From: Chromera velia
Lineage: Eukaryota > Sar > Chromeraceae
Direction: 5' to 3'
DNA length: 20,000 nt
NCBI GenBank assembly: GCA_018398765.1
Contig: JAHBMJ010004247.1
Span: 60,001-80,000 of the forward strand
This document shows, piece after piece, positions 1,269 through 20,000 of this stretch; the first letter of the stretch is position 1; every line of letters begins with the position of its first letter. Made by a program: the position numbers and the translations under genes. Under the pieces are notes generated by a model. The model was given only the letters and a program-made list of their open reading frames with translations, did not search any database and was not told the origin of the DNA.

Positions 1269-1735
1269 CGCAACTTTCTCAAACATTTCTAAAATTTCTC
1301 TACTCATGATAAACAAAACGACTCAGCATAATTTTTAACGAGTATCTGACTGTTTCTACATATTTTTCGACACTGTGAGCAGCGAACCGTGTAGTCGGTT
1401 TAACTGTATCATCAACAGTGGTGATTTGGGTTCAACAGAAACTTTCAGCGATGGTCTACAATCCTTGCTGTCAGTAACTGTGAACGTCCACATAGCCGTG
1501 GTCGATCCTGCTCTACTAACCAAACTATCAGCTTTGTACGGGGCTCTAGAGTATAATGGGGCTCTTAAGGATTCTTAGGGAAGGAGGTTGTCAATGTCCT
1601 GTTATTCAATGTTAGTCTGCTAATAGCAAACGACCTCGACACATAATTTAGACCATGCAATTGCTGTGCGCGCACGCTCTCTTTGATCACTGGCATAATT
1701 CAGTCTGTCGCGCGCGTTCCGCCATGTTTGCTGCC

Positions 1736-1753
1736 GCCACGCCTCTTCGTGGC
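1736..1753. repeat. Perfect dyad, 6-bp stem
   Basis: GCCACG and CGTGGC flank a 6-base loop. The 9-mer GGCGCGCCC overlaps its right arm (1751-1759) and recurs at 1964-1972 beside a second dyad. Confidence 0.5.
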
Positions 1754-1939
1754 GCGCCCAAGTGTAAGGCTCGAGTATTCAGTTAGACCGTTTTCTATCA
1801 TTCGATCCCATAGCCGTCTCCTTTGAGCAACACCTTTGGGAGCGTTAATCTCTCAAAATTTTTCACTATTTTTTCTTCTGTTTTGAGTTGGCAACAATCT
1901 CTTGAGCTTCTGAACTCCTTTCTACAGCCTGATCACTGT

Positions 1940-2100
1940 GTGTAGGTATGCGCCGCACTGTGCGGCGCGCCCGTGTCCGGGGCCCTGCAACCGCGCCGGC
2001 CCGGCGGGCGGCCTGCCGTGGGTCGCACATGCGCGGGCCGGTCGGATGCACCGATGCATGCACCGAAGAATCACCGCGAAGATGTCGACGTCTCCGCGTA
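1940..2100. promoter_or_regulatory. GC-rich block with a perfect 8-bp dyad upstream of the HPF-cupin gene
   Basis: This block is much richer in G+C and CpG than its surroundings and lies 220-380 bases before ATG 2324. It holds a perfect inverted repeat, GCGCCGCA/TGCGGCGC with a 3-base loop (1950-1968), and a repeated GATGCACC/GATGCATGCACC motif (about 2044-2064). A promoter or 5' UTR role is inferred from position only; no TATA box is evident. Confidence 0.3.
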
Positions 2101-2323
2101 GCTGGCTGAAACAGGATCAAAGATGATGAAGTCTTCTGGTGAGTTAGGGGTGACTTTAATGTATCAAAAAGAATCAAATTGCTCCAGAGTGTCTTCTACA
2201 CCGAGCAGGTCATCCAAGTCCGAGTGAAGGTGCCGTAGCGCTTCGTCTTGACTGTCAATAAGCCACGTGCAGAGCCGTCTTTTTGCGACAACACTTCGAC
2301 ACCATCTTTCTGTAGTTTGGAAC

Positions 2324-2457
2324 ATGCGACAGCTATCGCTCTCTCTTTTACCTTTTTTGCTTGTGCAAGCAGTCCACAGCATACGCTTTACGAGGCGGTG
2401 GGCCGCCTACACAGTCGAACCGCTTGCAAAGTCCTCCGTGGACAAGAATATTTATAG
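2324..2457 (+). other. Exon 1: bipartite plastid-targeting leader
   Basis: This exon encodes a short n-region with Arg, a hydrophobic core (LSLLPFLLVQAV) and a plausible cleavage site after AVHS. An Arg/Lys-containing stretch poor in acidic residues follows. It ends at a strong donor (AG/GTGAGT) with two bases left over; exon 2 supplies the third to make an Arg codon. The exon carries only the leader, which is common when targeting sequences are acquired by exon addition. Secretory targeting alone is the alternative reading. Confidence 0.7.
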
Positions 2458-4576
2458 GTGAGTGCTTTGGCTTCTCTTCCTTTGTCGGTGCATCGTTCGA
2501 ACCTCACAGCTATGCTCAGATACGTGTACTAGAGGCTAAAGGGTGGACATGAAAAATGCGTGCGGACGGTCGACATGGACTACCGGGAGCCAGATCGCTG
2601 ATGCAGACCCCAAAGGTAGACAGAGCCTCCAACCAAGCACATGTTGTCTTGCCCCGTCTTCTCTTCCTTCCTTCCTTCCTTCAGAGTCTTCTTCCGTCTG
2701 TACGACAAGAGCGGGGAGCTGAAGCCCGTCTCAGAGCAGATCTTTCAGAAGAAGAAGAACGTCGGCTGGGAGGAATTCGAGGATGTCAGTCAGGCAGGCA
2801 GGCAGGAGGACAGACTGAAAGTTCCAAATCGGGAGCGTGAATCCAATGTTGAGGATTTCTTCAGACTGTTCCTACTTTGATTCCTGCTCGGTTCCGTTTT
2901 CGCAGTGCTCGCTTTCTGTGCAGGCATCACTGAAAAGTTGACGGGCGCGATGAATTAATGCACGGGTCCCTCAGAACAGAATAGATCAGAATGTCTGTGT
3001 GTGCTTCTGATTCCTGCATGCTTGTATGCATACCTACATGCATCCAATGATTTGTTCTCAGCGTTTTGCCTCCCTGGAGGCCAGCAAGGCCTACGAGGAC
3101 CCCGAGAATCTCGAGATCCCCCAGGGGATGGAGATCATCGAGGCGAAGGAAATCAACGAAGCTGTGGCAGAGACGCCAGACAAAGAGACCATCGCGGCCC
3201 TCTGGAAGGCCCTTGCTGGTCTGTCAGTCAGCCAGGGAGGCAGGGAGGGGACCTGTGCAGTCAGGAAATCGTAAAGGCGGGTAGGCGGGGAGGGAGGCAA
3301 CTCAGTGAAGGGACAGTGGTAGGACATGTAGGAAAGACGCACATGCGTATCAGCACACACATTTTGAAAAGAGGCAGGCAGACGGCTAACGCACTGACTC
3401 GTTTCTTCTTCTTCTTCGCCTGAATGAATCTTCCTTTCTCTGCTGCCGTTTCCTTTTCGCAGCACAGGGGGGAGAGAACGCTCGTCTGCCTGCTTGTTCT
3501 GCGAACCTTCAGTGTAATCCATGCATGCAGTGAATGATGGATCCATGCAGTGAGGAATGGCTCTCTCGCTCGTACACCCCTCTCCTCCCCTATATGTGCG
3601 CGCGCGTGTGTGTGTGTGTATGTATGTATGTACGTATGTATGTATGCAGAGGACAACGAAATTCTTTTGAGGGAGGATTTCGAGAAGATGCAGAGGCAGT
3701 GGTCTGGAAAGAGTGAGTGAGTGAATGACCTGATACAAAAAGCAGGAGCCTGGACATGTTTTTTTTGTTCTGTTCGACCGTTTGTCTTGCCCTGAAACCT
3801 TCTGACCGCACGAACGTGCCGAATCTGCCGCTTTATTATTCTTGAGGCGGCCTCTCTTTCCTACACCACGCTTCTCTCCCAAACACTTCTTTGGCTCCCT
3901 CTCTTTACCTCCTCATGAGTCACATGCGTGTCACTGTGATTAGCCATGAGCAGGGAGGGCGTGTGGCGCATCCGGCAACTGAATACAGCACGTCCGTGGC
4001 TCGGAATCGTTTTTTCTTTCCGTAAAAGACCCCCCTCCCCTGCCGCACCTCCTCTGTTTCTGCTGATCCATTCATTCCTTTCCTTGGGTCGGTTGCGATG
4101 AAAGGAACGGAGCAAAAATAGGACCGGGCTGTTCTTATCCTCATCTGCGTCCTCTCACAGTTCGCGAGCCTTTAATTTCTCGCGAGCTTCTTGATATCTA
4201 TCTGTGCGCATTTCTGTAACTCTGTGAAGTCGGGCATCACATCCCTTTCTTTTTTGCAACCTGTTCTTCTCACATGTGCGTGTGTGCAGGCCTCGTTCAG
4301 TTCAGCGAGAAGTTTTCGGAGTCTCTGAAGGGCCCGACGGACGTCATGCAGGCAGAGGAAGAGGAGAAAAGACTCTCTGTCAAAATGATGGGCAAAAACC
4401 TCCCTCAGGTCGGTACTGTTGTGAGGGAGGGAGGGAAGGAGGGAGGGAGGAAACGACGACATGGCTTTTCCTTCCTGACTGGTGCAGTCTTTCTTGCAGG
4501 GCTGAACTGCAACGAATGGACTCACACAGACACAGAAACAAGGATACGCTCACGCAGACACTCGCACACACACTCG

Positions 4577-4642
<66 letters not shown>

Positions 4643-6890
4643 CGGACATGCAGCGACGCTAGCAAGGAGCAGAAGTGCCACATGGGTAAAAAAAAAATCG
4701 AGCTCTTGAGAATCCGACGAGAGACAGAGAGAGCCCTCCCTGCGAACAGTCGGCTTTTTTGGTTTGACTTGATGCTTATCTGGTCGATGTTTTCCTCCCA
4801 GTTTTCATTTCTCTCCCCCTAAATCGAATGCGCGTTTCCTCGACTGACCCCATTACGCTAAATCCTTGTCTCTCTCTCTCTCTGTAAGGGCGCGCGCGCG
4901 TGTCTGTGCGTGTGTATGTGTGTGTGTGTACGTACGTATGTATGTATGTGTGTATGTGTGTGCGTGTGTTCGTCGTGTGCATGCGTGTGTTTGTACGCAG
5001 AGTGAATTTGTGGCGTTGGAGCGTTACGTGGTCAAGAAAATTGGGCACATCATTGACCTCCACTCGAATTGGCTCAGCCAGGTAGGAGACAGGGAGGGGA
5101 GGCATGGATGGATATGCAGCGATGTTCCCTCCCTGTATGACAGACACAAGCTGTTGAAGAAAAAGCAACCAACCAACCGTGTGTTCCCTCTGTCTGTCCT
5201 CTTCTCGGAGGAAGGATGCAAAGCAGGACTTGGACATACATCCTGGAGGGGCTGTGTAACAGATTCGCGTAACATCTCTCGTGCACCTAGACAGCGCGGT
5301 GGAGACTGGAGAGATCCACTCTCTCCTCTCATCGTGTTCGTTTTTTTCTTTCTTGTCAGGTGTCCTTCTTTCCTTTCTTCCTTCCTGTCTTCCATCTGGT
5401 TGATACCCTTTCCTCTTTCGTCGACTGAAGCGCATGTCGCAGGATCCTCTCTCACTTCTCCTCCCTCTCTTTTCCTTTCATTCTCTGTCGGGTGAGTAGG
5501 ATGTCGGATGGGGGCACATAATTACGGAAGGAAGGAAGTTTCCCATTGCTTCCCTTCGTTTCCCTTCCCTTTGCTTCCCTTCCCTTCCGTTGTCTTCTCC
5601 TGCGAGCTGCTGGATAGGCAGATAGCTTGAGGACGGTTGTTTGGCCAGCTGGTTGGTTGGCCCTTGATTGATTGATTGACTGACTGAAGGAATGATGGAT
5701 CGGATGATTGCAGGTGAAGGTGACCCTAGATGCCGAGAAGGAGCGTCACAAGAAGGAGCCCTTCTCCTGCACTGTTGTGGGAGTCCCCAGAGGAAAGGGC
5801 GGATTGAGAAGGGCACTGGAGGTGGGTCGGTCAGCAGAGTTGCATCGTTGTCATCATATTGGAGGATAGTGGAAATGCGTCGTTGTCATCATATTGGAGA
5901 ATAGTGGAAATGCGTCGTTGCTCGAGGATGGACGCGAAAAGGCAGACGGCAGGAATCAAGCAGACGGGTATTGTAAGTTGGTTCGTGGACTGGATGGTTC
6001 ATTCCATTTGAGGTGTGTACAGCCTGACCTCATTGATTTCATTTTGCCTGTGCACGTTGAAGTTGGGATTACTTTGTGATCATGACGTCGGCCCCGCCCC
6101 GTCTTTTTCTCTTGTGTCTTTCTTCATGCATTTGTTTACCTTCCTTCGGCTCTCGACATGTTTTTTCCTGCATATGGTTTTGCTCTCCCCCTCAGGTCAA
6201 AAAAACGGGAGAGTCGCTGTACGCAGCTGTCGACTTTGTCGAGTCTGCTTTCGGCCGCGTGTGTGCAAACTACAAGGTAGGGTGTGTGTGTGCGTGTGAG
6301 TGAGTGCAACCACACCGACCATGCACGCGCACAAGCTAAAGGCGGGCTTCTGAGCGAGAAGAGAAAGCAGTGACTGAGAAGGGCGGAGTGGTTGTTTGCA
6401 TGCTCTGCACGTGAAGAGTCTGTTTGGTCTTGTGGCCTGGGTCTGGAGAAATTGAGAGTCGCGTAACTGCCATGATTTCAATAAGGTCATTCCGCTCCTC
6501 GATTTTCTTTCTAAACCCACTTGCCTGTCTCCTATCAGGCCAAGTGCATTCACGATCCGCTGTCCGTCAGACAGACACAATTATGTGGTGGACTTGGAGG
6601 GAGTTAGAGGCAGAAATTCGATCGTTGACTGGCTGGCTGACCGACCGAGAGGCTCCCTCTCTTCGTTCCAACTCCCATCCGCCCGTAGCTATTGATAGGA
6701 TGGCTGACCCTTTCTGTCTCACGACCGCCCTTCACCGCACGCAGTCTTCTCCTTGCAGAGAAAAAAATTCAGTGTGCGAGTATGCTTTCACGCATGCTCT
6801 GGTGGCTCTGAATGCCGAGGCAAGACAGTACTGTCCGACGACTTTCCTCCCCCGTGTCTGTATGTGTGCGTGTGTGTCTGTATGTGTGTG

Positions 6891-9171: not shown

Positions 9172-10600
9172 TGAGCATGTCTTTCCTCGCTGAATTTCTC
9201 CTGCCCGCCTGCCGTGAAGAAGCAAAGGAAGGAAACAGACACACAACTAACCAAGTCCGTGAAGCAGAAGAGGCAGAAAAGTGGCCAGGCGAGTGTGGAG
9301 GAGGAAACGTGACGGTGCATTGTCTGGCCAAAGAAGGGAAGAAAACATGTCTTCTTGAGTGTATGAGAAGATGACAGCAGGCCGACGGCAATCAGCCAGT
9401 CTGTCTCGGGCGGTAACGAGCTGCTGGTTGTTCTCTTCTTTTGTATTCATTTATTGTATTCCAACAGATGGACGGGGTTCATTCTCTCTCTATTTCGATG
9501 CATCGATCAATAGATTGATGTTTCAATTCCACGCTGCAGAGTGATGGCGGGTGCCTATAAAGAAAGCAAGATGGGGGTCTCCAAAGGATGCTTCGTTTTT
9601 TATGTTCGACCGGAATAATGAAATCGGGGAATGTACGATACATATAAGCTGATAGAGAAACGAGGGATGACCTGTGCATGTCGATCAGCGACTCGGGGTG
9701 TGATGGTGGAGAGGAGGGGGGGGAGAACTCATGGGTCAACTGATTGGGTTGGCTGGTGAGGTGAGATGCTCACAAAGTTTGTTTGTGTCGCTCCCTTGCT
9801 GGCTCAGTTTCCTTCGTGCCGATCGATCAATTGATTCTTTCTCTGCAGGACGGGCAGGCGGGGAATAGACAAACAAAGATCCGTGCGTAATCTGTACAAG
9901 TACTTTTCTGTCTTCGGTTCTTTCCCTCCCCTAGCTCTTTTCTGAAGGACGAGCTGGCTCAATGCGTGAATCCAGGAAGGCGGCATGCATGTTTTCGCTT
10001 GTTGAAACGGCCGGTCTGAGTCTGACGGGGGGGAAACAAGGAGGCGGACAGGGAGGGACAGACCGTAAGCATGCAGTCGTCAAATTGAACTGATTGATCA
10101 ACCTTATCGCTCGAATTCGTTCGTCCTTTCATCCATCCATTCATGTCTCCAATTCTCCCCCCTCAGTCTTTCACTCTCTCACTCACTACTTCGAATTCGA
10201 TTTTAAGCTCTTTGATTGATCGAGTGTAAGATTCTATGAAGATTGAGTCGTGAAGTCTTCAACCATTAAAAAATTTATGGCATGCACCCAGTGACTGCAA
10301 GTCGGACAGCAAGTTTTCTGACGACTTGTAAATGGCAGTCATTACATTTTTTTTTTAGTATTTCCTAGGAAATGTTTCTGTATATGAATATATGGGTCAT
10401 ACTTTATGTTATAATCTTGGTCATAATATGTGGCTTAGGACTCGGCGGATTCTGAAGTTAGGAAACTTGTAACGTCTACATATGGCTCTAGATAATAGAT
10501 ATGGCTGCTAGTATAGTTGCCTACAAGTAGCTAGTTGTAGTTGTATATGAACTTATTAAGTCAAAATTATATTCCGGTGCTAAGTTTGCTGCGTACATAT

Positions 10601-11313
10601 CTAGGGTTCACACTCTAAAGTTCTAAAAAAAGAAAGAAAGAAAGTTTGTCTGAGTTTTATATATTTTAAGCTTTGTTAGGATGATTAAGTTCATGCAGAT
10701 CGACCTATAGAGATCGATGCAGTTGTCTGACAGTTGATGGGCAATATTATGTTTTCCATCGATTCCTATAGGTGTTTTTTAATGTTTAAACCATATATTT
10801 GTACTAGAAAATCTATATAAAACCGGTTTCGCTAATAGTTAGGCTAATAGTTTGATCGCTATAGTTGGATCGGACCTTTAACACCGTGACATATTTGTTG
10901 TATACCGACCTAGCTGCTATACCAGTGCAGCCTAGGCGTAACACGAGGAAAACATAATCTATACGTCACGATCCCGGATAAGGTGAGAGTACGGAGGTCA
11001 GACTTCAATTCATTTAATCGATCGATCAGCGCTCTGGCAATGCCGGTCACTACTAAAGATCAATAAATACCGACTTGCATGCACCGATGTGGCTAAATGC
11101 TATAGCCCCCAACCGTTTGTATAGGCGGCCATAAGCTCTATGGAGGAACATACCGCAGCCCCCGAGAGGGCCGTGTCCAGGCGGAACTCAACATGATTTT
11201 TACTTATAAATTTTACAAAGTTCTAAACTTGAATCTAAAGAAAAAAATAACTTTGAAAGAAAGAAAGTTGCCCTCAGTTTTCGTTGTTTAAGGCTTTACA
11301 GTGTGAACCTTAG
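10601..11313. mobile_element. Non-autonomous TIR transposon, element 4 (713 bp)
   Basis: The left end is CTAGGGTTCACACTCTAAAG; the right end read inward is CTAAGGTTCACACTGTAAAG (18 of 20 identical). Exact 8-bp direct repeats GTACATAT flank it (10593-10600 and 11314-11321). The inside is AT-rich with no meaningful open frame. It also has a direct repeat near each end: AAAGTTCTAAA at 10617 and 11217, and GAAAGAAAGAAAG with following sequence at 10632-10675 and 11255-11299. The 8-bp duplication suggests a hAT-like or similar DDE transposase acting in trans; none is encoded here. Confidence 0.88.
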
Positions 11314-11407
11314 GTACATATCATATATAATCATTGTATACAGTCAGTATTTTCTTACACGCTAGATGCTTAGGCTGGAGAGGTTCCTACAGTTGTTAAT
11401 AGCCTGT

Positions 11408-11623
11408 CTCGGCGCCGGCTAGAGAAAAACAAAAAAAAAGATCTCCCTCGATCGTCCACTGTTTTTTTTTTCAGTTAAACAACTATTGTTCAACTGTTGC
11501 ACAAGTGTTGTTTGTGTGTTGCACAACTGTTGTTAAGTGTTGTTCAGGGTCAAAAAATATATATTAAAAAAAAAAAGACTTCCCAAGATCGTCTACTTTT
11601 TTTTTTCTCTAGCCAGCGCCTAG
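11408..11623. mobile_element. MITE-like foldback element 1 (216 bp)
   Basis: The left end is CTCGGCGCCGGCTAGAG and the right end read inward is CTAGGCGCTGGCTAGAG; both are followed by A-tracts. The 8-bp duplication TAGCCTGT is exact (11400-11407 and 11624-11631). Inside is an array of TTGCAAC/GTTGTT-type short repeats (about 11477-11548), in inverse orientation to those of elements 2 and 3. Confidence 0.85.
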
Positions 11624-11631
11624 TAGCCTGT

Positions 11632-11956
11632 TATCATAACAGAAAGTCATTTGTATCAACTTCTCATACTGGCACAGGAGTCTCGAGAGTGACAGGACTG
11701 TCTGTGTCACACCGGCGAGCACATCAGGTGTATAATTTTATGGTAACATATGATAAAACCTTTTTTAAGGCTTCTTATAAAATTAAGCGCTTTTCAGTTT
11801 CTAGTCACTCTCCAATCATCCGAGCAATCATCATTATAAGTCCAATGCATAGAACACTATAAGTAGAACGACTACTTTTACTAGTTTTATATTAGCTTCT
11901 AAACACTCTAGCAAAGCCAACTTCATTCATTCATTCATTCATTCAAATAAAGTTAA
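11632..11956. other. AT-rich spacer between elements 1 and 3
   Basis: Nothing is recognisable apart from a short ATTC tandem repeat at about 11925-11944. Confidence 0.5.
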
Positions 11957-11964
11957 TAAACATT

Positions 11965-12135
11965 CTAAGCATGTCACAGAAAAAAAAAGTCTCTAGAAAA
12001 ATAAGTTTTTACCTGTAACACTTTGCAACACTTGTACAACACTCGTGCAACAGCTAAACAACAGTTGTTTTAGACAAAAAAAGAGTACCTGACAAAGAGA
12101 GTTATTTACTTTTTTTTTCTTTGTGATACCCCTAG
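11965..12135. mobile_element. MITE-like foldback element 3 (171 bp)
   Basis: The left end is CTAAGCATGTCACAG followed by an A-tract and GT; the right end read inward is CTAGGGGTATCACAAAG followed by an A-tract and GT. The exact 8-bp duplication TAAACATT flanks it (11957-11964 and 12136-12143). The interior has a GCAACACTTG-type array ending in AACAACAGTTGTTT (about 12018-12072). Confidence 0.85.
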
Positions 12136-12143
12136 TAAACATT

Positions 12144-13644
12144 CCTTACTTATTTTACTTACTTAATTGTGGTTAAGCCTAGGGTCTTTGAAACCAGAGA
12201 CAAATGGCAATCCATGCATGCAGTTATAAATAAAAGGAGCAAACCACCGCAGCTTAGCCTGCTTCTGCATGAATATGAATAACCACGACCTTCCGCAGCC
12301 TAGGCTGAAGCTAAAGGCTGAACAACCCCACAAGACGTGCGTGCACTCATTTCAGACAAGCTTTGATCAGTGCACTTGCCTTCTTCGGCTCCCGGTCTAC
12401 AATGAATGAAATAAGCTCTCTTACATATGTCTCTTCTTCCCCAATACCTCTTCCCCCAGCTGTAGCAGTCCATCTTGCTCTGCAGACCCTTTCACCGATT
12501 CTTGTTCTCTCTTTCACTCTCTCTGCCAGCAAGTGAAGTTTAGACTTAAGCTGCTCTGTTCGCACGTATGCAGACAATCGATGCACCGCATCATCGATCA
12601 GCTTTTTGCCTTCGACTGCAGGACAGTGAATACAGTGTTCTTCGTAGGATCCACCATGTCTCTTTCCCCCACCAGCATATGCTCGAAGGAGAGAGGTGAA
12701 AAGAGAACTACCAGACAAGAGAGAGCGAGGCAGAGTACGCAATTGAACTGTGTAACCCCACCCTCTTCTAACCCTCCCCCCTAAAAGCAACATGGCCAGA
12801 CGCTGGTGCGATCGGTTCTCTATCTAAAACTTACTCAGTCAGGAGTTGCGTGGATAGATGCCACATGAACGGGTGAGTCTATGCTTACCGACGGGTTTTG
12901 AAGTCAACCATTCCGACAACCATTCTGAGGCTTCCCTTTCTCTCGCTTTCTGCCTGAGTGTCCATTTATTTGTTCCGTTTCTCCCTCTCTGGGTTTCTTT
13001 TCTTAAAAGATCTGGTGCGATTGTCTGAAGCATGCTACTGGCTGAATTGGCCCATATCGGGGTCAGCGATCTGTGCCATGCATCCCAGACTGCCCGAGGA
13101 ACCTCCCTTTCTGTTCTCTTTATGCTTTCTATGAAACCTCCCAACCGACAATCCTATAAACATTCTCTATCAGAATCTCTAAAACATAATAAATTCTAAG
13201 TTAATTTAAAATTTTCTAATATTTCAATGAGTATCAATGAGTTATAATTACAAGTTATACAAATTATAATAAATATTGGAATAAGTGAAACTTATATAGA
13301 TAAAAACTATATGAATAAAATTAAAATCTTGATCGACTGATCAATAATTTGTTACAATGTTATTTATGCATGTGTGCATAGGCTACACTAGTAGGCTGAA
13401 TAGCGAGCCATTAAAGCGAAACAAAATGATGACAAAACGCCTTAATTTATTTCCGGATTCAATCAAGAACGTGCGTGAGAGGCTGAGATGGTGGGAGAAG
13501 TTGGGAGCGCACTCGTCTGAAACGATTGTTACAGACGACTCCAGAAAATTTAAGCTGTATGCGTCTGACCAGATTCGACTGGCTTCTTATTCAATTCTGT
13601 TCTGCCCTTACCTTGGCTCGTTGACATCTCTCAGCGCTAGATTG
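12144..13644. other. Spacer with GC-richer minus-strand open frames of unknown nature
   Basis: Inside the AT-rich island, 12340-13150 is richer in GC and holds two minus-strand open frames (12793-12347, 148 codons; 13144-12839, 101 codons) in different frames. The first contains a Cys-x-x-Cys (HCIHCPAV) and a long helical charged stretch beginning KKLIDDAVHRL. A plus-strand frame at 13357-13656 encodes 99 residues. I recognise no family. A decayed mobile element or captured gene fragment is plausible; expression is unsupported. From 13190 to 13340 the sequence is very AT-rich and empty. Confidence 0.35.
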
Positions 13645-13652
13645 GGGGGAGG

Positions 13653-13878
13653 CTAGGCTCTACACTCTATAAAAAAAAAAAAAAAGTTTCCAATCTTTTA
13701 TTTTTTTTTATTTATCAACTGAAATGTATATGGTTTTCAACGCAACACCCCGTGCAACACTCTTGCAACACTTGAACAACAGTTGTTTGCCTATTGAATG
13801 CCATGATAAATAAAAAAAAATCTATAAAGAAAAAACTTTTTCTCTTCTTTTATTTTTTTTATGTAGTGCGGAGCCTAG
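13653..13878. mobile_element. MITE-like foldback element 2 (226 bp)
   Basis: The left end is CTAGGCTCTACACTCTATAA and the right end read inward is CTAGGCTCCGCACTACATAA; both run into A-tracts. The flanking 8-mers GGGGGAGG (13645-13652) and GAGGGAGG (13879-13886) match at 7 of 8, consistent with an older target duplication. The interior (about 13742-13790) carries a GCAACACTTG-type array ending in AACAACAGTTGTTT, as in element 3. Confidence 0.8.
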
Positions 13879-15354
13879 GAGGGAGGGCACATATGAATTC
13901 ATGGTTGAAGCGTCTCCTTCCTTCTCTCTGTTCCTCTTTGGTTTTTGTGATTTCGCCTCGACACAGAGGGAAGAAAACAATTCTTGGCCGACAATCTGTC
14001 TATCCTGACCTACCGAAGAAGCTAGGACAAAGAAAGAACAGAATGCCCAAGGACCGGAGGGAGAAACGAATGACCAGCGCCGACACGTCTTCAAAATGCC
14101 ACCAACGCTCCCTTCATTTCCTTGCGAGCGACAAAAGACAGAGAAACGAAGAAAGAAGGCAAGAAAGAAAGTGACTACTCGACAGACTGAAAAGGACTGT
14201 ACCCACCCACCCACCCAGCCAGCCACCCTCGCGTTTCTCTCTTCAAACAGACCCTACCCACACAGCCCTCCAGCCATCTCGTACATCAGGAAGTAAGCAA
14301 GCAAACCGTCTTTCGTCCTCCCTGTCCTTTGTTCTCTGTACTTCCCTGCGATGCCCCCTCCCCTACCTTCCCTTCTCTGCCTGACGCCCGCTTCCCTTTC
14401 CGTCCTCTACTTCCTTTCCTGTTGTTGATGTGGTGAGAAGAGAAAAGATCTGGGAAGTGCAAGACGAAGCCTCATCAAAAAAGAGAGAGAGGGACAGAGA
14501 GAAAAGAACCCCCTGAAGTCTACTTCGAGCGGAAGACCGGAGACAAACTTATCCCTCCCTCGGCTTTTGTGCCCCTTCGTTCGGCCAGACCACCGTCAGA
14601 CGACTCGCTCCAATGCACGCACGCACGGCTGAATTCCATTCCTGTGCACGCACGCAGGCAGGCAGGCAGGCAAGCAAGCAAGCCCGTCTTCCGTCAGTGC
14701 TGATTGATATGAACTCGACAGCCTGTTCTGCCGGGCCAAAGACAGAAGAGAAGGGAAAGGAAGGAACGAAGAAATTTGATGTTCTGTCGGGTCGATCGAT
14801 GGAAGGATGGATGAGGATGGGAAGGAAAGAAGGAAGCAAGCTAGTGCAACTCACTCACTCACTCTCTGTCTGTCATTCATGAATACCATTCATACAAAAC
14901 AAAAGCAAAGTAATCAAACCACCACCTCCCAATTGCCCCAACCCCCCCCCCTAAATCGATCCATTTTGAATTTGAAGAGAAGGCCCACAAAGCCCTCCCT
15001 TTTCCCCCTTCCCCAAATGAATAAGTGAATGAATGAAACAAAATCTTCGCTCAAAGAACACCACCCGACCGCCTCCACACCCTTCTCCAGTCGTCCTTCC
15101 CACACTGGTATGCCAGCTTGATCTTGATTTCTATTGATTTTCGCAGCAGACTCAGCCCCCCACCGACCCCCTCTCCACCAATGAACACTTCAATGAGTCA
15201 TTCATTTTCTTCATAACAAAAACCAGCAACACACATGAAAAACAAACATGCAATGCAGACTCCCACCACCGCAAGCACTCATCCGTCCCCTCCAACTGCC
15301 CGATTCAATTCAATTCAGTTCGACTCAAGCAGAGCTCTCCCTCTCTTTCTCTGT
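13879..15354. other. Non-coding spacer downstream of the Hsp110 gene
   Basis: Pyrimidine- and purine-rich DNA with simple repeats (CCCA at about 14200-14215; GCAG/GCAA at 14650-14683; GAAT/TGAA runs near 15017-15035). A plus-strand frame from ATG 13893 could encode 93 residues with a hydrophobic start, but its remainder is Arg/Lys-rich and featureless. No clear AATAAA on the minus strand was found just after the Hsp110 stop. Confidence 0.5.
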
Positions 15355-18300
15355 CTATGCCTGCACGGGCTCTTCCATCGGCACATCCCCGTTCGCGTCC
15401 CCGTTGAGCTTCTGCTCAGCGTCTCCCTTCCCAACATCATCTGCGTCCCCCATGGGTGCGTCCACCTCACCCTCTGTGGTGGGCTGCTCCCCCTCAGGAA
15501 CGTTGTCCCCTCCCTCAATGTCCTTCTTTTCCTTCTTGGGGGACGGGGGGCGCTTCTCTGACATGACCTTGTCCGTCTGCTTCTGCAAAGCCTTTGCCTT
15601 CTCCTGCACCTGCTTGCAGAGGAACAGAGGAGCCTCGTAGGGCTTCCTCAGACTCTGCTTGGTCATAGAGTCCTTCAACCACTGCTGGAGGGATTCTGCG
15701 TCCTCCACAATCTTCTTCCGCTTGTCCGCAGCGATGTGCGCGTAGGCCTCGTCGGGGGACTGGGCCAGCTGGCGGCACTCCGTGATGACAGCCAGGGCGG
15801 AGTCACAGACCTCATTGCGTTGTTGCGCCTCTGTGTAGCGCTGCTGGATCGGGTTGATCTTCGACTGCAAAAAAAGGGGGGGGCGGGAGGGAGAAGGGGG
15901 AAAGGGAGCAAACAAGAAAGGAGCCAAGTTGAGTCGGCGTCGGTGAATACGGTCAATCGTCGTGTGAGCAGAATGAAGAGGGAAAACAAGCCGGTCGGCC
16001 GGCTATGTATTTGTTGCTTTGCATACAAAGCAATAAATAAAGGCTCTCCAATGGACGAACAACCTTCATTCCCAGCAGGGAGCAACAGAGAGCGAGAGGC
16101 AGAAAGAAAGAAAAACATCCCACCCAATCCAATCGGAAATGCGCGCACATACCCCCAAAAAAGTTCGCAGTCACAGCATCAGAAGGGACAAAAATTAAAT
16201 GACGAATCGAGAGGTACTTGCTCACTACCAAGACGAAAGGGAGCATGGAAAAACACAATAAGGTAGAATGAAAGTATGCCATTAGGAAGGCATATGGTTG
16301 CAGCGCCTTTCTTTTCCAGTGCGCTGAACAAGGGACTCAAGACGATCAAATAAAGAGAAGAAAAAGAGAGAGAGACTTTCGAGGCTTCCTGGTGGAGCAG
16401 AGAACGCCAAAAGCTGAGAGCGAATTGTGAAATGGCAGTCAAAAGACACCACCGATATCTCATTGTGCTTTTGACAAACAAACGAACAGAAACTCCCAAA
16501 CAATTAAGTCTCTCTCTCGCTCTTTTTTCTGACAAGGCAACCCACTCCCTACTCACCTGCAGCTCCTCAAGTCTTTTGACGAAGGTGGACTTGGGTGCGT
16601 CGTACTGATCGTACAGCCAGTCCTCTGTCTCTGTCAAGAAAGCCATGACTGTGTCTGCCTGTGCAGGCTCAGCAAAGTCCTTCATGGGCCCAGAGAGCAG
16701 TTCTCTCCCTCTGTACACAAACGACTCACACTCGTTCTGCTTCTCCAGTGTCTCCTGGATCATTCGGTCCGAGTCAATCATAGCCAACTCAGCCTCAAAA
16801 TATTCTTTCAATTTGTTCTCATCGGGAATACCCGGGAAGGGGGGGGGGAGGACTTTCAATTCGATGCGCTTCGTGCGCGTCTTTCTCTTCACCACCTCTT
16901 CCTCCACCTCCTCAAACTCCTCAGCAGGCTTGGCGGCGGCGCCATCTGTGGGCGCATCTGCAGCGGCGGCGGCAGGTGCCTCACCGGCAGGCGCCGCGTT
17001 GGCGTCGTCCATTTTGGCGTCTGCCGACGCCTCTGCGCCCTCTGCAGGGGCAGCAGCAGTCGCATCTCCGTTCATGGTGGCGTCACCTTGTGCGTCGGTG
17101 GAGGGGGGTGCTGCTGCTGGGTCTTCCTTCTTTGCCTTGGGCACTTTCTTCTTCACCTTCACCTTCTCTTCATACTCCTCCTCCTCAATCGCAGTAGCGC
17201 TCTCGACTGTGAACACGCCGTGGATGTTGACGGTCGTGCGGACCTTGATCTTTCGGTTCGAGCCGTCGGCGAGACGGTCAAACTGGATGTGGTATGTTCC
17301 TGCATCAACAAACGAACAAACAGGAACAAAAGAAATGCGAGAAGGAGAGGACAGGAGGAGAGATAGAATGGGGCACACGGACTTGTATTCTCTTCTCTTC
17401 TCTTCCTGTCTCTCCTCTTTCGCGTCTCCAGTCTGACATACCCTGCCTCACCCTCTCCCTTCTCCAGTCAGCACAAGAACCCCGAAAGAGCCAGCTACTG
17501 CCCTTCTCCACTGCGCCACCGACCGACCGACCGACCCAGGTTTTGGTCTTCATCCTTCACTTTCTTGAAGGCCGTGACGTCGAAGGACTCCGCTCTGTTG
17601 AAGGAGACCGTCTTGATCACGTTCATGCAGTCATGCTTGTTGAACAGAACGGAGGACTTCTGAACCGGCCTGCACCGACAAACAAGACAGAAAAAAGACA
17701 CAAGGAAGGACGAATGTAAATGACAACCAAACCAAAGACAGAGACACCGAGAAGAGCACCCCCAAGTTGCCTGTTGACATGACTGCGTGGCTTCCCCTCC
17801 GTGCCAGTTCCCTACACGCAATACCTCCCACAATTGAGCAAAACTCAACATGAAAGCAAAAAAACAAACCCAACGGAAGAGGCAGAAAAGCAAATAAATC
17901 CATGAACAGAGACTGCCGACAGACCCACCCCTTGGCCTCCCGGTCTGCTGCCCCGACCATCTCGACGTCTCCAGATTTCTCCCATGCAATAGAGATGGGT
18001 TGCTGAACGACATCGTTCACCTGCAACAACACAACACACGCACACACGCGCCCATACACACACACACACACACACACAAGACACAGATATTCACACGGGA
18101 GGATAGGAGAAGAAGGAGAGTGACAGATAGGGGAAAACAGAAAAGGGAGAGAAAGCACAACCAATCGATTCATACGAAAGGAAAGGGAACACGAAGAATG
18201 CAGAGAGGGGGCTGGTTCAGCCAAGCCAACCAGCCACGCAGCGCAACTTCATGCTGATCACAACTGCCCCGTCTGCTGACAATCCTTCTCCCTCTCTTCC

Positions 18301-20000
18301 TACCTGAAATTCCCTGACGGTGAAGAAGGGCGAGAGCATTGCCGCCTGGAGAGCGCACCCCCTCGCCACGCACTCATCCATCTGGAGTGTCTTCGAAGGC
18401 TCCCTGCCAAAGAACTCGGTGATGGCCGACTGGATCCAGGGCGTGCGAGGAGCGCATCCAACCAACTCGACAAACTTCACGTCTTCTCTTGTGATGCCTG
18501 AAGCCAAGGGAAACGAAGGGAAAAGATGAAAATTTAATACAAGAACTGAGAGAAAGCAAACAGCAGAAGTTGAAAGAGGTTGGTTCAGTTTGAGCCACGC
18601 CGAGACGACAAATTTCAACACAATCCGGGGAATCGAATCGAGCCATGCCGAGCCAACGCAGGTCGGATCACTCCAGAAAAGAGAGAAAAGAACCTCAAGA
18701 ACAGTCTGACATGCAGCCTTTTGTCGCGCAAAACACTCAACCAGCCTCCCTCCTTGCCTCAGCGTTATCCCTTCAACGAAAAAGAGAAAAAAGACGTCCT
18801 TTGTTCTGCCATCTCAAACAACCTCAGTCAGCAGCTGAGCTGACCGGATGCTTCGAGGACGTTGGAGAGGACTTTCTGCAGTCTGGGTCTGTACCCCTCA
18901 CACATGGCCTCATAGTCTTCTCTCTTCAGGTGCCCCGCCAGGTCCTCATCCTCCATCAAACACTCAATCGAAATCGGGGCGTCAGTGTTGGCAGACAGAA
19001 TCTTCTTCACCTTCCCACACGCCTCTTCGAGCCTGCATGGGGTCGGAGGAAAGTGGGAGTACACACACATGGGTTGGTTGAGTGGGGGGGAGAAGGGAAA
19101 CGAAAAGAAACGAATGAGGGACGCAAAAAGAACAGTCAGTAACTCATTTAGCCTTGCTCGCTCGTGATCCAGTGATCGCGTGATCAGATCAGATTCTAAT
19201 TCCCTTCCAACAGAAAGAAAGAAAGAAAGAGGGCAGGCCAGTTTGTCATCTCGGGTCCCCTCCCTTTCCGTTGTCTCCCCAGAAAGAAGACAAGATAAGA
19301 CAGACAGATGGAGCTGGTGAAAAACTGGTAGAACAGCGCCGTCTGATGGTGTGATGGTGTAGGTGTGTGTGTGAGAGTGTTCAGACACATACAGATTCGA
19401 GCATTCAAGCATGCAGAAAGACAAGACACCGGCCGCTCGACTGATCCATCCACTATGAAACATAAAAACCAAGACACTCATTGCACTCACGCAGAAAAGA
19501 AAGAGGGAGGACTCACTGACTTGAGTCTGGCCTTCGCATTCTCGAGGGGGTTGAGTTTGAACTTTTTCTCGAACTCCCCTGCGAAATGTTCCATGATCTT
19601 CCTGTCAAACTCCATCCCTCCAAATCCCTCGTCGTGCTCCGAGGAGAGAATCTCCAACTTCCCCTGCAGAAGAACACCAAGAAGAATGAATGAATGAAAA
19701 TAAACATAAAGAAAGATGCATGCAGATTTGACTGAGTCCTGTCCCCCCAAACCGCTCACTCGCCATATTCTGAGAAGAGACTTCCCATCTTTCTCCATCG
19801 AAAAAATGTTGCAGTCTAACTTGGTTTCCCTGGACACTGCTCAGCTCGTTCGGTGGCCGAGGCAGCCTGCCAGACAGTGGAGTCAGTCGGGTCCAAAAAA
19901 CCGCCTGAAAGAAGAGACTCACCTTGTGATTTCATTGGGAAGGGAGAATGTGAATGTGAGATGGCGGATGGGATAAACCGATTGAAAGAAAGGGAAGTCA
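15355..20000 (-). CDS. HSP110: Hsp110-type Hsp70-family chaperone / nucleotide-exchange factor, 5' part off the window
   Basis: Spliced minus-strand gene, about 667 C-terminal residues placed. Exons in transcript order: 19836-19760 (tentative), 19663-19521, 19032-18845, 18497-18304, 18020-17929, 17669-17536, 17299-16557, 15864-15355 (TAG). From 19663 onward all junctions are GT-AG with matching phases. ATPase-domain pieces include GKLEILSSEHDEGFGGMEFD, SANTDAPISIECLMEDED and FVELVGCAPRTP...ECVARGCALQAA. The beta substrate-binding domain follows (VVQQPISIAW, then KVRTTVNIHGVFTVESA). It is interrupted by a long Ala/Asp/Glu-rich loop, as in Hsp110 rather than canonical Hsp70. The helical lid carries the Hsp110 signature TETEDWLYD. 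Hsp110 proteins exchange nucleotide on Hsp70 and hold unfolded clients in the cytosol. The C-terminus (PMEEPVQA) lacks EEVD. No ER-retention tail is present, so it is probably cytosolic. The N-terminal ATPase portion lies beyond 20000. Confidence 0.93.
16860..17160 (-). other. Low-complexity acidic/Ala-rich loop inside the Hsp110 substrate-binding domain
   Basis: Roughly 90 residues in exon 17299-16557 are dominated by Ala, Pro, Asp, Glu, Gly and Thr. They run from a Lys-rich KVKKKVPKAKK segment to the acidic EEFEEVEEEVV. Hsp110 proteins carry a variable acidic loop here, between beta strands of the substrate-binding domain. The codons are GCN-rich and repetitive, which suggests growth by slippage. 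Confidence 0.7.
18024..18078 (-). repeat. TG tract upstream of an Hsp110 3' splice site
   Basis: On the minus (sense) strand this is (TG)n followed by a GTTGTTGCAG acceptor for the exon starting at 18020. It repeats the arrangement seen in the introns of the plus-strand gene. Confidence 0.85.

Follow-up and report, generated by a model that had tools for sequence, protein, structure and literature searches.

The window analysed here is a 20-kb stretch of Chromera velia DNA (G000:C3517:60001-80000, part of a 177.8-Mb assembly of 4040 contigs), in which four short elements, E1 to E4, lie close together between positions 10593 and 13886. The four are best read as miniature inverted-repeat transposable elements (MITEs). 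Elements, ends and flanking duplications were confirmed in the sequence, in agreement with a first-pass annotation that had described four elements of 171-713 bp, three with exact 8-bp duplications and one matching at 7/8. The features are as follows (no strand is assigned to them).

10601-11313: E1 MITE, 713 bp, ends CTAGGGTTCACACT / CTAAGGTTCACACT, terminal inverted repeat of about 35 nt at 80%
10593-10600 (left) and 11314-11321 (right): E1 target site duplication GTACATAT, exact
11408-11623: E2 MITE, 216 bp, ends CTCGGCGCCGGCTAGAG / CTAGGCGCTGGCTAGAG, terminal inverted repeat of 27 nt at 89%
11400-11407 (left) and 11624-11631 (right): E2 target site duplication TAGCCTGT, exact
11965-12135: E3 MITE, 171 bp, ends CTAAGCATGTCACAG / CTAGGGGTATCACA
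11957-11964 (left) and 12136-12143 (right): E3 target site duplication TAAACATT, exact
13653-13878: E4 MITE, 226 bp, ends CTAGGCTCTACACT / CTAGGCTCCGCACT, terminal inverted repeat of about 65 nt at 71%
13645-13652 (left, GGGGGAGG) and 13879-13886 (right, GAGGGAGG): E4 target site duplication, 7/8

The end forms given by the first-pass annotation, CTARG with a single CTCGG, are present, but CTCGG is the left end of E2 and not of the first element; its numbering of the elements was therefore not positional, as the CTCGG end sits on the second element by position. Likewise, the CAC motif ascribed to three elements is found at positions 11-13 of both ends, its carriers by position being E1, E3 and E4, while E2 is without it. 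The window was scanned with the pattern CT[AC]RG...CYTAG, with the two motifs 100-1000 bp apart and an 8-bp duplication with at most one mismatch, and the scan recovered E1-E4 only. In 300 first-order Markov windows the exact pattern was never found (maximum 0), and with at most one mismatch it was found 0.04 times on average (maximum 1). No stop-to-stop frame of at least 100 aa was present inside E1-E4, of which only E1 is long enough for one.

Copies in the genome and target site duplications

A DNA search of the organism's own assembly, for which the best 40 candidates were scored per family, yielded further copies of all four families, as the first-pass annotation had proposed to check. 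At first look there were 86 candidates for E1, 488 for E2, 244 for E3 and 378 for E4, which are candidate numbers and not copy counts. The commonest E2 end occurs exactly at 134 genome sites and the E1 end with at most one mismatch at 40, and the reversed-pattern control gave 0 sites in both cases. The mean divergence of 27 E2 copies was 7.4% (range 2-14%), a figure that is biased low because the copies were drawn from the best-scoring ones.

In the fetched copies, 77 end pairs were available, a set in which some pairs overlap and at least one element counted as E3 (L005) is E4-like; most of the loci had been picked by similarity of the element and not of its flanks. An exact duplication of 8 bp was found in 30 pairs, of 9 bp in one, of 10 bp in one, and of 5, 6 or 7 bp in none, and 40 of the 77 pairs have a duplication at 7/8 or better. 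With one pair kept per overlapping place, 29/74 duplications of 8 bp are exact and 39/74 near-exact. The flanking repeats of other copies are mostly 8 bp long where a repeat exists; this and the existence of further copies go against the two conditions that the first-pass annotation had named as refuting its reading. Two E4 copies show the duplication, that of the window at 7/8 and that of L012 exactly.

A scan by CTARG...CYTAG and an 8-bp duplication alone recovered 20 distinct elements in 68 loci, two of them the window's own, and added element types that had not been used as queries, for example in L015 and L048. The same scan found no element in five shuffles of the 68 loci, and with duplicates kept, duplication lengths of 6, 7, 9 and 10 bp gave 0, 1, 3 and 0 elements.

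These counts bear on the explanation that the repeats are chance or simple-repeat look-alikes and not transposons. Runs of A and T abound in the interiors, the possible direct repeat of E1 consists mostly of GAAA repeats, and 37/77 end pairs are without a 7/8 duplication, which also weighs against transposition as the origin of the elements. Against such look-alikes stand the complete absence of exact cases from the Markov windows and of elements from the shuffled loci, as well as the end counts of 134 and 40 versus 0 for the reversed patterns, so that we consider this explanation hardly credible. In being short with inverted ends, having a duplication of constant length and being repeated in the genome without a transposase gene, the elements have the characteristics of MITEs, and the E1-E4 families are best read as real, dispersed, non-autonomous cut-and-paste transposons of this kind.

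Families, end form and subterminal repeats

The first-pass annotation had described a single family of transposons with terminal inverted repeats. The short inverted repeats, the 8-bp duplications and the amplification in the genome hold, but the elements fall into no fewer than four sequence families that have the end form CTARG-N5-CAC in common, CAC being absent from E2. Comparison of E1 with E2, E3 and E4 gave no sequence match, the end form being all that is in common. E2, E3 and E4 have a core module in common, the best pieces of which are 80-88% identical:

11463-11531, minus strand: core module of E2, in opposite orientation to that of E3 (12017-12082) and, in part, of E4 (about 13742-13788)

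For the end form, 13 ends of seven element types were hand-picked from earlier outputs by the CTARG rule. All 13 have C, T and A at positions 1-3 and G at position 5, with G or A at position 4; C, A and C occupy positions 11, 12 and 13 in 9, 10 and 10 ends, respectively. Because this rule guided the choice, agreement in the first five positions is not independent evidence, whereas CAC is. A wider set of ends starts with CT in 118/148 and with CTARG in 104/148 cases.

Inside the inverted ends, further repeats were found in the window:

11431-11472 (left) and 11568-11609 (right), plus strand: E2 subterminal direct repeat, 83%
10632-10674 (left) and 11255-11297 (right), plus strand: possible E1 subterminal direct repeat, 77%, largely GAAA repeats

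Direct and inverted similarity of the subterminal segments was scored with A/T runs and GAAA repeats masked. Among E2 copies the direct score exceeded the inverted one in 18/19 and equalled it in one (means 27.5 direct, 12.5 inverted and 9.6 shuffled), and among E3 copies it was higher in 13/15 and equal in one (means 13.8, 8.6 and 8.3). An E3 motif, derived from the copies themselves, is present near both ends in direct orientation in 23/29 rows and in inverted orientation in 0/29, some rows being overlapping pairs from L040 and L043. Subterminal segments thus recur in direct orientation in both E2 and E3; the E3 element of the window, which is shorter than the other E3 copies listed, is without the left subterminal repeat. 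For E4, one of two copies has a direct repeat by score, and by eye it is present in the L012 copy. A direct repeat of E1, seen in 6/6 copies unmasked, remained in 2/5 with one equal after GAAA masking and is not claimed, the unmasked alignment consisting mostly of GAAA repeats. The elements are new families of a known kind, MITEs, and in two of these families a subterminal segment is directly repeated.

Insertion, nesting and clustering

An E4-type element with the duplication GCTTGAAC sits within an E1-family element in C1028, and seven other loci align across this insertion point without the E4-type element. The empty site is less than perfectly clean, as 12 extra nucleotides adjoin the E4-type element at C1028, and among 37 listed elements (with repeats) spanning empty-site matches were found at one distinct place only. 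Around positions 1100-1120 of L012, an extra CTTGAAC, with few bases between, lies beside the nested E4-type element and resembles an excision footprint.

Elements of other kinds are also nested in these families. In C1968 (L079, G000:C1968:15600-22850) a retroelement of the long terminal repeat type is nested in an E2 copy whose ends still match and whose duplication CCAAAAGC is exact; the retroelement has reverse transcriptase, RNase H and integrase zinc-binding matches, and we read it as Ty3/gypsy. In L077, at about 1731-5199 (minus strand), broken frames that by reading resemble reverse transcriptase are nested in an E1-family element; they gave no Pfam match above the cut-off, and two other loci have uninterrupted sequence for this insertion.

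The clustering of the four elements had been taken as a sign of an insertion haven between two genes. Matches of another family were found in 9/65 other loci, some of which overlap; by our reading, L006 and L008 among them are due to the shared core and L012 and L018 coincide, so that six places remain against a rough expectation of about one, estimated from candidate numbers and not from copy counts. An insertion haven between genes is weakly supported by this cluster and by the weak excess at other loci. The region is rich in A+T, with a G+C content of 34-42% in seven of the eight 500-bp steps of positions 10001-14000 and 49% in one, against a value near 50% over most of the window. Frames at 16179-17447 and 18828-19604 (minus strand), right of the cluster, match HSP70 above the Pfam cut-off and are perhaps exons of one gene. 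An open frame at 4776-5477 (minus strand) has a weak DDE_3 match (E 0.0048, below the Pfam cut-off) and is perhaps a remnant of the Tc1/mariner type.

Search for an autonomous partner

A full-length relative with the same ends and a transposase, as suggested by the first-pass annotation, was sought among the end sites and long end pairs. The E2 sites listed were 100 of the 134, and the end-pattern search covered the E1 and E2 ends and not those of E3 and E4, so that an autonomous copy may have been missed; within this range no transposase was found in an element with CTARG ends.

Three long pairs were read and rejected as carriers of a transposase. The pair in C3469 (5.9 kb, duplication 7/8) holds frames read as a nested reverse-transcriptase element together with other non-coding repeats, and its frames gave no Pfam match above the cut-off. 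The pair in C2194 (8.4 kb, no duplication) holds Copia-like remains by reading, N filling 7012 of the 8521 bases of L078. The pair in C1968 (7.1 kb, exact duplication) is the E2 copy around the retroelement described above. The far-apart E1 matches in C3594 and C3719 form no pair with a duplication; between them they contain a LINE-like frame (RVT_1) and a Copia-type frame whose RVT_2 match, at 31.3 bits, falls just short of the cut-off.

In the open-licence literature, no account of these CTARG ends was found among the matches listed. The string ctagg occurs twice in a Tol2 paper (PMC4818426), as a string match alone.

Candidate transposases

Cut-and-paste movement, action in trans and binding of the subterminal segments by a transposase are what we infer for these elements. 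An enzyme encoded elsewhere would recognise the inverted ends, perhaps along with the subterminal segments in the case of E2 and E3, excise the element and insert it into a target whose two strands are cut 8 bases apart, and gap repair would then produce the 8-bp duplication.

Our best guess for the source, unproven and as probable as all other sources together, is a hAT lineage of the same genome. Duplications of hAT elements are usually 8 bp long, 5-7 bp variants also being known (PMC12730594), and the duplications found here are 8 bp long. The hAT dimerisation domain was matched by Pfam search at seven places in the assembly and confirmed in three fetched loci, and the hAT control was silent in all 14 control genomes. 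As in hAT-derived MITEs, the elements are short, with inverted ends and 8-bp duplications, in a genome that has hAT domains; they differ in their CTARG ends, in that no shared hAT transposase was demonstrated and perhaps in the direct subterminal repeats of E2 and E3. Of the two known candidates, hAT and Merlin, hAT is the better because of the duplication length and a loose likeness of the ends, while described Merlin ends begin with GG.

Five hAT loci were fetched, two of them cut by contig ends, and in none was a CTARG pair found. At L069 the ends are CAGGGTTGC and the duplication is GAGTCATC versus GAGTTATC (7/8), by eye. Among the scored candidates, 40 have 3' ends that match the hAT family of L071, and other copies of this family were 92-98% identical to the query. 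About 4 kb separate an isolated E2 end (G000:C600:31443-31459, minus strand) from the hAT match on contig C600; the 7 kb read there, outside which the part from 31000 to the E2 end lies, contain no E2-like partner end with fewer than 5 mismatches. On these results hAT was rejected as a proven source and kept as the best guess.

Several observations weigh against a hAT source. The hAT end consensus is YARNG and the ends here begin with CTARG, although E1 and one E3 end would fit from the second base. The hAT target preference is nTnnnnAn, and T at position 2 or A at position 7 was found in 32/74 duplications (p=0.03), which speaks for hAT; this bias is weak, however, and T at position 3 or A at position 6 is as strong (0.46 versus 0.43). 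All 20 ends read of the L071 family (L099-L118) carry an extra C, 17 beginning with CCTAGTTGC and three with CCTAGTTAC. Visual inspection showed no duplication at L071, nor at the C304 pair, whose two ends possibly belong to different elements. To these are added the outcome of the search for a CTARG-ended element with a transposase and the presence of Merlin/IS1595 matches in the same genome. The hAT-like or related transposase proposed by the first-pass annotation is compatible with the data, with a competitor in the genome.

That a Merlin/IS1595 transposase moves the elements draws on 19 DDE_Tnp_IS1595 matches in the assembly (e.g., G000:C4019:60166-60495), 18 of them over the cut-off with a best E of 7.6e-14; some frames with this domain are 330-394 aa long without an inner stop, and the profile control was positive in 1/14 control genomes. 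Merlin target site duplications are 8-9 bp long and described Merlin ends begin with 5'-GG (PMC8101967). The 8-bp duplications here fit, but the ends start with CT, and GG starts 0/148 ends of the wider set, which was picked by likeness to CTARG ends. In addition, none of the contigs with an IS1595 match turned up in the site listings of the E1 and E2 ends (100 of 134 for E2). We regard a Merlin source as unlikely.

That the elements are moved by a transposase from some other superfamily, be it P, KDZ or an undescribed one, is a possibility of some weight, clearly ahead of Merlin and behind hAT. CTARG-N5-CAC fits neither the hAT nor the Merlin end form, and reading of the long end pairs revealed no transposase. 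KDZ transposons (Zisupton, Dileera) make 8-bp duplications (PMC12730594), and the likeness noted here is one of duplication length. KDZ and P gave 0 Pfam matches in the assembly, zeros that are no evidence of absence because both controls were silent in all 14 control genomes. MULE, with a control positive in 3/14, also gave 0 matches, which counts against that superfamily, and an unknown superfamily is needless while most hAT ends remain unread.

More speculatively still, and slightly less probable to us than a Merlin source, the CTARG-N5-CAC elements might form a distinct lineage, whose transposase would be undescribed or come from a hAT lineage of altered end specificity and would, for E2 and E3, pair inverted outer ends with direct subterminal sites in an asymmetric end design.

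Significance

Should the end form mark a lineage, unclassified repeats of this genome and of related ones could be sought with a simple key, CTARG-N5-CAC plus an 8-bp duplication. That the subterminal segments of E2 and E3 are repeated directly offers a testable hint on how a transposase distinguishes the two ends of an element. If the transposase proves to be hAT, the elements would be further members of a well-known class.

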